A model generated the notes under the pieces. It did no database searches. It saw nothing but the letters and a program-made list of their open reading frames with translations, and was not told where the DNA came from. A stretch of 34,961 bases of DNA from Opitutia bacterium (GTDB lineage: Bacteria > Verrucomicrobiota > Verrucomicrobiia > Opitutales > T3Sed10-336): positions 1 through 34,961 of the forward strand of contig PXDN01000143.1 of NCBI GenBank assembly GCA_003566375.1. Direction: 5' to 3'. Shown here one piece after another: positions 4,474-9,792 of the stretch. Numbering within the stretch: the stretch's first letter is position 1; each line of letters opens with the position of its first letter. The translations under genes and the position numbers were made by a program.

Positions 4474-4743
4474 GCAAAAGATCCCCCCGCACTTCGGGTT
4501 GCGGGGCCGGTGGGAGAGGGCGAAAATATTTTTCCGCTCCCCCGCTTTTGCGCTTGAGCCGGGCGCGGTTCCTGTCAACGTTGGAACTCTTTTCGCGGCA
4601 TGCAAGCTTTGGCCGGGGAGCCGCGGGTTTCCGTCTCCGGTCCTTTTTCAATAAAAACCATTCCAACACCACCGGCCCGCGGGCCGCGCCGCCCATTCCC
4701 GGTTTCCCGGAAACCGACCGGGGACTGTGACGGCAAACTTCTA

Positions 4744-6408
<1,665 letters not shown>

Positions 6409-6449: not shown

Positions 6450-6484
6450 ACGACCCTCCGGCGCTTGCGCCGGGGGGTCGTTTT
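6450..6484 (+). terminator. Rho-independent terminator downstream of rpsA
   Basis: cgaccctccggcgc-tt-gcgccggggggtcg hairpin (6451-6464/6467-6480, one G-T pair) followed by tttt. Confidence 0.8.
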
Positions 6485-6589
6485 GCCATGAAGGGCGCCG
6501 TTCAACAGGCCGGTCCGTAACCGGGGTTTTTACCTTTCCATCTTCTACTTGCCACGACGCGTCATTCTTTTAGGGTAAGCCTTCCGTTC

Positions 6590-7885
6590 ATGCCTTCCAT
6601 TCTCATAGTAGACGACCTGACCGCGATTCATGAAATGCTCGCCGCGGTGATTCAACCCACGGGCTTCTCCATGGCCTTTGCCGAGGATGGAAACAGCGCC
6701 CTCGAGCAATACAAAAGCGGTGAATTCGAGGTGGTGCTGGCCGATATTTCCATGACGCCGATGGACGGCATCGAACTACTGCGGCATCTCAAGCAATACG
6801 ACCCGGACTGCGTAGCGATCATGATGACCGGCTACGCAAGCACCGAGACCGCCATCAAGGCGCTCAAGCACGGTGCGTTCGATTACATTCAAAAGCCGTT
6901 TAAAATCGACGAGCTGCTCAAAACCTTGAAACGGGCGGTGGAGTTTCGGGCGAGAGCCAAAGGCCAAGCCCGCGGCGGCGCCGCGGAGGAGGAAATATCC
7001 CTCGACATCGATTCCCGGCTGGTCGGCCGCGGCGAGGCCAACCGGCGGCTCGTGCAGCAGGTGCGGAAGTTGATCCACGTGCACACCCCCATTCTCCTGC
7101 TGGGCGAAACCGGCACCGGGCGGCGGAGCATTGCCGAAATCGTGCACGCCGGGCAGAGCGGAAAGGACAAGCCGTTCATTTTGGTCGATTGCGCCCAGGT
7201 CGGCGAGGACGCCCTGCGCGTTTCCCTGCTGGGGGAAAACGGCGCTCCCGGCGAGTGGATCGCGCGGTCGCGCGGGGGAACCCTTTGTCTCCAAAACATT
7301 GAGACGCTCGGTCCCGCGGCGCAGGAGGGGCTGGTTGCGGTCATCAAACGCTGTGTCAGCGACACGCGCATCATTTGCACCTCCGCCGACGACTTGGAAG
7401 CCCGGATGGAGGAAGGATTGTTTGACGACGAGCTGTTTTACCGCATCGCGACCCTGCCGATTCATGTCGTTCCGTTGCGGGAACGGTTGGAGGACCTGCC
7501 CGAATTAATCCGGTTTTTTCTGGCCAAGGCCAAAAATCCACGGTTCGAGAGCGCGCAGATTGAATTCTCCCCCGCGGCCTTGGAGGCCATGCGGGCCTAC
7601 CCTTGGCCGGGGAACGTGCTGGAACTGCAGCAGATCGTAACCAGTGTCGCTTCCTCCACTGAAAACAGGGTGATCGACCCCGCCGGGTTGCCCCGCAAAG
7701 TGACCAGTATGGAAGGGTGGCCAACGTTGGAGGAGCACCTCGCCCGGCAGGAGCGCCGCTACATCCGCATCGTGCTCAACGCGGCGGGCGGCGACCGGGA
7801 AAAAGCGGCCCGCATTCTGGGCTGCGATCCGGCCAAGCTCGACGGGGTCGAAAACCCGGTCGAGGCTGAATCGGTTAATTCTTGA
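6590..7885 (+). CDS. NtrC-like response regulator with degenerate sigma54-activator AAA+ domain and truncated Fis-like HTH
   Basis: Receiver ILIVDDLTAIHEML...VVLADISMTPMDGIELL...MMTGYAS...IQKPF; AAA+ region GETGTGRRSIAE, GGTLCLQNIETLG, FDDELFYRIATLPIHVVPLRERLEDLPELIRFF; C-term NAAGGDREKAARILGCDPAKLDG. Confidence 0.88.
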   Translation: MPSILIVDDLTAIHEMLAAVIQPTGFSMAFAEDGNSALEQYKSGEFEVVLADISMTPMDGIELLRHLKQYDPDCVAIMMTGYASTETAIKALKHGAFDYIQKPFKIDELLKTLKRAVEFRARAKGQARGGAAEEEISLDIDSRLVGRGEANRRLVQQVRKLIHVHTPILLLGETGTGRRSIAEIVHAGQSGKDKPFILVDCAQVGEDALRVSLLGENGAPGEWIARSRGGTLCLQNIETLGPAAQEGLVAVIKRCVSDTRIICTSADDLEARMEEGLFDDELFYRIATLPIHVVPLRERLEDLPELIRFFLAKAKNPRFESAQIEFSPAALEAMRAYPWPGNVLELQQIVTSVASSTENRVIDPAGLPRKVTSMEGWPTLEEHLARQERRYIRIVLNAAGGDREKAARILGCDPAKLDGVENPVEAESVNS

Positions 7886-7900: not shown

Positions 7901-8998
7901 TCAACCGGCGGCGGCCGCTTCGGTTGCTTCGTCGGCAATTTCCGCCAGCGTCACTTCGCGCCCTGTTTCCGCCGACCGGTAGATGGCGTTCAGCGTCCGC
8001 TGAACCGCCAGTGCCTGGGGGAGGGTGCAAACCGGTTCCGCCTTTCCGAGGATCACGTCGATCCAGTTTAGAAACCGGTTTTCGGTGGCGTGGGGCGTTT
8101 CGATCGGTTCCGGAGTGGTGACTTGATACTCCCCGCCTTCCGGGCCGAACCGGCAGAGCTTGGCATCGAAAGCGGTCAGGGCGGCTTCGGAGCCGAAAAT
8201 CTCGACGTTGTTGCGCCCTTTATCCTCCGGCTGGTGCATCGCCCACGCCACTTCCAAATTCAGGGTGGTCCCGTTTTTCAGACGGATCAGGGCTCCGGCG
8301 AAATCCTCCACGTCAAACACGTTTTCCGAGCGGTCCGACAGGCCCCAGCCTCCTTCGCCGAGGCCGCGGTGGCCAAAGGTGCGGTGGGTGATGCCGCTGA
8401 CCGATTCAATCTCGAAATTATCCATCAGGTAGAGGGCGAGATCGAGCAGGTGGACGCCGATGTCGAGCAGCCCTCCGCCCCCGGCCAGTTTCTTGCTGCC
8501 AAACCAAGTGCCGAGGCGCGGAATGCCGCTGCGGCGAAGCCAGTAGGCTTTGGCGTGGTAGATGTCGCCCAAATCGCCGCGCCCGATCATCGCCTTGACC
8601 GTTTGGGTTTCCTTGCGGAAGCGCATGTTCATGCTGACCATGAACGTCAGGCCGGTTTCGCGGGCCACCTCCGCCACTTGCACCGCTTCCGGGTAATTGG
8701 TGGTAAACGGCTTGTCCAGCATGACATGTTTGCCCGCCCGAAGAGCGGCGATGGCCAGGGGCGCGTGAAAGGCGTTGGGCACGGCGATGCTGACGGCATC
8801 GATGGAATCGTCGGCCAGCAGGTCGTCGGCGTTGGTGTGAACGCTTTCGATGGCGAATTCGTTTTGCAGGGCCTCCCCGCGTTCCCGGCTGGAATCGGCC
8901 ACCGCGACCACCCGCGCGTCGGGATGGGCGTTGATGGAATTGCAATTGTGGGCGGCGATGCGGCCGGCCCCGATCATGCCAATGCGAAGTGTGCTCAT
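7901..8998 (-). CDS. Gfo/Idh/MocA family oxidoreductase
   Basis: MSTLRIGMIGAGRIAAHNCNSINAHPDARVVAVAD...HVMLDKPFTTNYPEAVQVAEVARETG...GGGLLDIGVHLLDLALYLM. Confidence 0.93.
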   Translation of the reverse strand: MSTLRIGMIGAGRIAAHNCNSINAHPDARVVAVADSSRERGEALQNEFAIESVHTNADDLLADDSIDAVSIAVPNAFHAPLAIAALRAGKHVMLDKPFTTNYPEAVQVAEVARETGLTFMVSMNMRFRKETQTVKAMIGRGDLGDIYHAKAYWLRRSGIPRLGTWFGSKKLAGGGGLLDIGVHLLDLALYLMDNFEIESVSGITHRTFGHRGLGEGGWGLSDRSENVFDVEDFAGALIRLKNGTTLNLEVAWAMHQPEDKGRNNVEIFGSEAALTAFDAKLCRFGPEGGEYQVTTPEPIETPHATENRFLNWIDVILGKAEPVCTLPQALAVQRTLNAIYRSAETGREVTLAEIADEATEAAAAG

Positions 8999-9030
8999 GG
9001 ATGGGAAGAGATGGTCAAAAAGGAGTTGGG

Positions 9031-9792
9031 TCAATAACCGAGGGCGCGCAGGTTTTCCAAGCAAATCCGCGCGCATTCCATGGGCGGGTGCTTGTGCGTT
9101 TCCTGCTCGACGATGTTCCACTCGGTGCCGCCGTGTTCTCTGGAAAGGCGGAGCACCTCCTTCCAGTCGGTGTCCCCTTCGCCGATGAGGGCGGTTTTAT
9201 CGGCGGAATGTTCCTTGAGGTGCAGGGTCACCGCCCGCCCGGGGTAGCGGATGAGATAGGGGAGCGGATCGGCGCCGCCGGCGATGGCGTTGCCGGTGTC
9301 GATTTGCATGACCACCTCGGGCCGGGTGTGGTCAAAAAAGAGGTCCCAAGGCACCACGCCGTCCATCGGGGTGAATTCGATGGTGTGATTGTGATAGCCG
9401 GTCACCATGCCGCGGGAGGCGAGCTTGGCGGCGAGTTCGTTGAAGAGTTCGGCGGTTTTCCGCCAGGCGTCGGCGGAGGCCCGGTATTCTTCCAACAACC
9501 CCGGCACGATGAGAAACCGGTTGCCCAACGTTTCATTGTAGTCGGCGGTGGCTTCGAAGTCGGGCTCCAGCAGTTTGGCCAACGGGGTGTGGGAGCCGCA
9601 GCAGCGCAGGCCGATATCGTCCAGCATCTTGCGCAGTTCGCCGGCCGGGGTGTCGTAAAAGCCGGCGAATTCCACGCCTTCATAACCCATCGCCGCCACC
9701 TCGCGCAGAACGGCGGGGAGGCCGCGGTCGCGGCAGTCGTCGCGGACCGAATACAATTGGAGGCCAAGGGCCGCTTTCACCGGTGTGTTCAT
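9031..9792 (-). CDS. Sugar phosphate isomerase/epimerase (xylose isomerase-like TIM barrel)
   Basis: LGLQLYSVRDDC...VLREVAAMGYEGVEFAGFYD...GYHNHTIEF...VVMQIDTGNAIAGGADPLPYLIRYPGRAVTLHLKEHS...IVEQE. Confidence 0.92.
   Translation of the reverse strand: MNTPVKAALGLQLYSVRDDCRDRGLPAVLREVAAMGYEGVEFAGFYDTPAGELRKMLDDIGLRCCGSHTPLAKLLEPDFEATADYNETLGNRFLIVPGLLEEYRASADAWRKTAELFNELAAKLASRGMVTGYHNHTIEFTPMDGVVPWDLFFDHTRPEVVMQIDTGNAIAGGADPLPYLIRYPGRAVTLHLKEHSADKTALIGEGDTDWKEVLRLSREHGGTEWNIVEQETHKHPPMECARICLENLRALGY

Follow-up and report, generated by a model that had tools for sequence, protein, structure and literature searches.

A pilC-linked family of NtrC-type response regulators in Opitutales-like Verrucomicrobiota that has lost the sigma54-contacting loops, with a possible role as a phospho-switch on a type IV pilus-type machine

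The window analysed here (34,961 nt) is the whole of contig C109 in a genome of 3.6 Mb, 422 contigs and 88% completeness. Its forward strand carries the gene of a response regulator of NtrC architecture, flanked by rpsA (4600-6408, forward) and a Gfo/Idh/MocA gene (7901-9121, reverse). Both neighbours were identified by inspection and neither is a kinase, in line with the remark of the first-pass annotation that no histidine kinase is adjacent. The following features are distinguished:

6452-6487, forward: GC-rich inverted repeat followed by a T run, after rpsA (terminator-like by eye; loop too tight for the scan)
6590-7885, forward: pseudo-enhancer-binding response regulator, 431 aa plus stop, ATG start (ORF reading, Pfam, 102 distinct orthologs)
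6590-6943, forward: receiver domain, residues 1-118, with D8, D9, phospho-Asp D52, T80 and K102 intact (Pfam Response_reg)
6629-6661, forward: receiver helix alpha1, residues 14-24, candidate partner surface (identity comparison; bounds from the model)
7013-7468, forward: degenerate AAA+ core, residues 142-293, fold retained, predicted catalytically dead (Pfam; model pLDDT; Foldseek to NtrX, NtrC1 and FleQ)
7103-7126, forward: Walker A GETGTGRR, residues 172-179, Lys replaced by Arg in the window copy (motif reading)
7235-7273, forward: stump of the L1 loop, GAFTGA gone through an 8-residue deletion (spacing comparison)
7274-7303, forward: Walker B strand GGTLCLQNIE, residues 229-238, Asp-Glu replaced by Gln-Asn (motif reading; mostly QH or QN in the family, never DE)
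7346-7363, forward: site of an 11-residue deletion removing the L2 (pre-sensor I) loop (spacing comparison)
7442-7444, forward: arginine-finger equivalent R285 (ELFYR), retained (R in 98 of 102 orthologs)
7469-7705, forward: AAA+ lid subdomain, residues 294-372 (Pfam AAA_lid_14; model)
7715-7843, forward: truncated Fis-type tail, residues 376-418, first helices kept and recognition helix absent (HTH_8 profile positions 2-30 of 42)

Given the hairpin and T run after rpsA, the regulator gene is probably transcribed separately from rpsA and on its own. The rpsA neighbour is common to no other locus of the family.

The Pfam matches of the 431-aa protein comprise Response_reg (residues 4-113, 97.7 bits), Sigma54_activ_2 (145-296, 84.1 bits), Sigma54_activat (145-292, 76.8 bits against a cut-off of 20.2), AAA_lid_14 (297-373) and HTH_8 (384-412). 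The best NCBIfam scores are those of AtoC, NtrC and NtrX, all far below their equivalog cut-offs (NtrX NF051870, 207.9 bits against 600). The Pfam VpsR domain PF20161 reaches 12 bits, below its cut-off of 23.7, and no PATAN domain is found among the Pfam matches up to E=1. The window genome encodes RpoN, a point the first-pass annotation had raised, and six other Sigma54_activat loci, which score 158-254 bits as opposed to 77 bits for the window protein. One canonical enhancer-binding protein locus of this genome (L029, G000:C273:15581-16738) displays an in-frame TAA, which may reflect a pseudogene, a sequencing error or a split gene.

Orthologs with 37-55% identity over the full or nearly full length are present in all seven other genomes of the same family and in four further families of the order. 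The search of family and order recovered them in 24 of 132 genomes. A further 80 loci, most of them under the labels Opitutaceae, Opitutae or Verrucomicrobiota, came from scanning named genomes. All motif counts below rest on 102 distinct ortholog proteins of the same order (Opitutales-like Verrucomicrobiota); the sequences derive mostly from metagenome-assembled genomes, the sample leans to Opitutaceae, and assembly gaps could hide genes. In the full-length tree the family is split from the canonical proteins with 100/100 support. One contig labelled as an Akkermansia muciniphila MAG bears a clear Opitutaceae-type member (L069) and is probably a mislabelled bin. Genome G003 carries a second, diverged copy (L009, G003:C5:10978-12282), whose receiver has lost the phospho-Asp and the Lys (LARLSM, KIPF).

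The receiver, described as intact on first reading, is so throughout the family: D8, D9, D52, T80 and K102 are kept in 99-102 of the 102 orthologs. The readings of Walker A, Walker B and the missing GAFTGA were likewise accurate, and the comparison with the orthologs upholds the conclusion that the protein cannot be a normal sigma54 activator, as the Walker B Asp-Glu pair occurs in none of the 102 (QH in 41 and QN in 20 are the most frequent replacements) and L1 is lacking in all. The dead Walker A, by contrast, holds for the window copy and not for the family, in which the position is occupied by Lys in 85, Arg in 10 and His in 7 proteins. With Lys kept in so many orthologs, its loss here is best read as a late and local change, and for most members nucleotide binding without hydrolysis is possible.

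The family carries further losses that had not been noticed before, namely the second deletion, which takes L2, the change of the switch residue from the Asn of canonical proteins to Asp (98 of 102) and the loss of the sensor I Asn across the family. Spacings were compared between 60 family members and 24 canonical proteins, the latter being paralogs or class-level relatives. All 24 canonical proteins have an L1 segment of 22 residues, which is shortened to 14 in 57/60 family members and to 11-13 in the remaining three, and the segment holding L2 spans 42 residues in 24/24 as opposed to 31 in 60/60. The spacings from Walker A to the switch and from sensor I to the arginine finger are the same as in all 24 canonical proteins, apart from three family members that deviate in the first. 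Judged by these spacings, both loops that reach sigma54 are removed from the family while the remaining AAA+ core is in register. The GxxGxG pattern is near-invariant, and the RER motif is kept in 93 of 102. In enhancer-binding proteins, L1, L2, the Walker B pair and the switch Asn have established roles (PMC7175178). The ATPase activity has presumably been lost in the family.

The C-terminal HTH of the window protein ends after LGCDPAKLDG. The observation that it runs out is correct; the idea that it is eroding in this copy is not, for most orthologs are truncated at the same point and extend about seven residues beyond the LG of the HTH. Seven members have no tail at all, and in family f5 (L038-L040) about 113-126 further residues, Glu/Lys-rich and coiled-coil-like by eye, replace or follow the truncated HTH. 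By homology, the tail appears to stop before the recognition helix, and DNA binding was probably lost as well.

Selection on the domains is unequal. Median dN/dS (NG86, pairs with 0.2<dS<2) amounts to 0.067 for the receiver, 0.17 for the AAA+ domain, 0.19 for the lid and 0.21 for the tail, based on pairs that are not independent and of which many are near synonymous saturation. A cleaner, controlled comparison uses one set of eight genomes throughout: receiver and AAA+ core show identities of 74.6 and 45.8% in the family, as opposed to 76.9 and 82.0% in one canonical ortholog group and 74.6 and 79.1% in another. These comparisons indicate that the constraint on the AAA+ core is specifically relaxed, not gone. 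An AlphaFold2 model from 23 family sequences reaches a mean pLDDT of 78.5 and values of 84-93 over most of the AAA+ core. Its best Foldseek matches are NtrX (5m7o) and NtrC1 (1ny5); LuxO, FleQ and VpsR are also among them. Whole-chain TM-scores of the matches are low; the domain arrangement may either differ from that of any one solved structure or be poorly predicted.

Clustering of the ORFs around 100 loci brought out a pilC/gspF gene (T2SSF, about 400 aa) as a persistent neighbour: in 97 of them it immediately precedes the regulator gene, in the same orientation and with a median gap of about 70 nt. A carB gene follows downstream in 73 loci, but is absent in families f5 and f9 and in genus g2 while pilC stays. 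We therefore treat the link to carB as secondary. The linked T2SSF protein scores 353 bits with GspF and 337 and 335 bits with PilC, below the curated cut-off in each case, so that its machine may be of pilus or secretion type; its best solved relative is the Myxococcus PilC (3jc8). In the window genome the pair is split: contig C320 bears the corresponding pilC, 70% identical to that of genome G005, but no copy of the regulator, and the ORF after this pilC is unrelated and lies on the opposite strand. Because synteny is broken there, the pilC context is invisible in the window. T2SSF proteins number about three or more in each of several genomes, which also encode many T2SSE ATPases; no ATPase gene is adjacent to the regulator-linked pilC.

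Forms of the regulator without the AAA+ domain occur in nature. In family f21 of the same order, the gene after pilC at six loci (L161-L166) encodes a protein of 173-186 aa in which the family's receiver is joined to its truncated tail, with no AAA+ domain by Pfam, and at a further locus (L174) pilC is followed by the receiver only. In the receiver tree these forms nest inside the AAA-bearing family, next to f5 (98/83) and together with f9 (95/81), a placement that is good but not final, as the tree comprises 123 columns and the f21 branch is long. The receiver surfaces of the two kinds differ in what they retain. Identity among family members is 67% in helix alpha1 with its loop, 71% in alpha4 and 77% in beta5; compared with canonical paralog receivers it is 19, 49 and 56%, respectively. 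Between the AAA-less forms and the family, identity drops to 27% in alpha4 and 18% in beta5, but is still 45% in alpha1. From this pattern we infer that the alpha4-beta5 face couples the receiver to the AAA+ scaffold, and that alpha1 serves a partner common to the AAA-bearing and AAA-less forms. The alpha1 helix of receivers is commonly the one on which kinases dock.

Families f3, f4, f11, f22 and f23 have, where examined, pilC without such a regulator after it. As several families keep pilC in this way, the regulator is not essential to the pilC-linked machine. Among regulator-less genomes, G087 (L247:1642-2529) and G146 (L262) have a soluble HATPase_c kinase after pilC, and G009 (L242:1828-2595) has a HisKA-like protein in that position; two-component control of this pilC thus seems to be wider than the regulator-bearing genomes. 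The post-pilC kinase of G087 and G146 found no match in eight genomes of the window's family, that of the window included, at E<=1e-18, and the candidate of a conserved cognate kinase was rejected.

The closest known systems are regulators of the NtrC/AtoC/NtrX type, which share the receiver, AAA+ core, lid and Fis-type C-terminal region; the family differs from them in lacking L1, L2, the Walker B pair and the recognition helix. PilR is likewise of NtrC architecture, and a position close to pilC is reminiscent of pil clusters in other bacteria. PilR is, however, a sigma54 activator of pilA, which the present family cannot be. Descent from a pilC-linked PilR is unsupported, as none of the canonical class-level relatives (L203-L206, L208) has pilC next to it; their neighbours are an amidohydrolase and other genes. 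Among known proteins, GAFTGA-less NtrC and VpsR come closest in their deviation from the canonical type, but are still DNA-binding transcription factors. They bind DNA and regulate sigma70 promoters; the NtrC of Caulobacter has an L1 deletion of eight residues, as here, and needs its Walker A and Walker B residues (PMC10274813). The present family differs in having lost Walker B, L2 and the recognition helix as well. A working analogue, and not a sign of membership, is provided by receiver proteins that act on the pilus machine, such as PilG/PilH and PixE, a PATAN-CheY-like regulator reported to interact with PilB1 in Synechocystis (title cited in PMC7690835). The family has an AAA+ scaffold or a truncated Fis tail instead of a PATAN domain.

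A separate degenerate enhancer-binding protein was encountered in L207 (G293:C6) and L237:9019-10392, with GEFGVGKH, with HLAEV for Walker B and without GAFTGA, but with an intact HTH. Its gene and a PilN / T2SSM-like / secretin cluster are some 4 kb apart. The protein probably occurs in other f53 genomes as well, and looks like an independent inactivation.

On its residues and motifs, the family descends from an NtrC-type sigma54 activator and is now devoid of both pore loops, the Walker B pair, the switch and sensor I residues and the recognition helix. Taking together the observed architecture, conservation, relaxed AAA+ constraint, pilC linkage and natural AAA-less forms, the explanation we favour, to which we give about an even chance, is that of a non-transcriptional phospho-switch, derived from a sigma54 activator, that contacts, and thereby controls, a type IV pilus-type machine. 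In this mechanism a histidine kinase would phosphorylate D52, which would alter the packing of the receiver, via its alpha4-beta5 face, on an inert AAA+ scaffold. The regulator might then bind a component of the machine, most likely the PilC/GspF platform encoded next to it or the motor ATPases, and binding would tune assembly or retraction of the machine. The suggestion of a phospho-switch with the AAA+ fold as scaffold, made from the window sequence at the outset, thus survives as the best reading; the scaffold itself has to be regarded as dispensable, as related genomes carry the receiver and tail alone. Where present, the AAA+ domain is still under purifying selection, and therefore does something that the phospho-switch explanation does not account for.

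Other explanations have to be considered. A phosphate sink or kinase-feedback role, with the receiver as a competitor for phosphoryl groups or a kinase inhibitor and the remaining parts as a stabilising scaffold, would suit the receiver as the most constrained part, alpha1 as a family-specific conserved surface and the histidine-kinase-like genes right after pilC in the regulator-less G087, G146 and G009. We nevertheless consider it unlikely, since a sink alone does not explain why the AAA+ domain, lid and tail are kept under selection, and regulator-bearing genomes have no linked kinase. The retained AAA+ fold, arginine finger and lid, in a genome with rpoN and six other Sigma54_activat loci, could alternatively point to a dominant-negative or modulating subunit, which would join a canonical activator in mixed AAA+ rings and there block or tune transcription by sigma54. 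This is rather improbable: it leaves the pilC linkage and the AAA-less relatives unexplained, and an AAA+ domain that diverges so fast is hard to reconcile with a tight interface to partners that evolve slowly.

A persisting transcriptional role at sigma70 promoters, independent of ATP hydrolysis as in VpsR or the NtrC of Rhodobacter capsulatus, has precedents in GAFTGA-less enhancer-binding proteins (Caulobacter and R. capsulatus NtrC, VpsR; PMC10274813), and VpsR is among the structural neighbours in Foldseek. These precedents bind DNA, however, whereas here the recognition helix is missing in most proteins and the tail is absent in seven and replaced in f5; the same truncated tail is also found in the AAA-less f21 forms, and we regard such a role as very doubtful. 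Similarly slight is the chance that the AAA+ domain is a nucleotide sensor, for ATP or c-di-GMP, that gates the switch. Its near-invariant GxxGxG, the Lys in 85/102, the arginine finger in 98/102, the RER motif in 93/102 and the c-di-GMP binding of its fold neighbours FleQ and VpsR would agree with it, but the window copy and 16 others are without the Walker A Lys, and f21 does without the entire domain. Finally, the many motif losses and the broken receiver of the diverged second copy in G003 might evoke a decaying pseudogene or a sequencing error. This is hardly credible for the gene and refuted for the family, as 102 distinct open orthologs share the same losses with dN/dS far below 1 in every domain, which bears out the initial view, taken from the open frame, that the gene is not decaying.

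Read as a series, these forms suggest a transition in which a sigma54 activator became a regulator acting post-translationally on a type IV pilus-type platform. Both sigma54-contact loops and catalysis would have been lost first, the recognition helix would have been cut off and one lineage would have dropped the whole AAA+ domain, with the receiver and the pilC linkage maintained throughout. We propose this transition tentatively and give it slightly less than an even chance.

Response regulators are usually annotated by domain, and members of this family would be labelled as sigma54-dependent transcriptional regulators. On the present evidence this label is wrong for a whole family across one order of Verrucomicrobiota. 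The family constitutes a natural experiment on how a regulator at the DNA level may become one at the level of a machine, with intermediate forms alive today. None of the open-licence papers searched brings pilC together with Verrucomicrobia and their Opitutus-type lineages, and no pilus control is described there for this phylum, in which the family provides a candidate type IV pilus regulator that can be tested.
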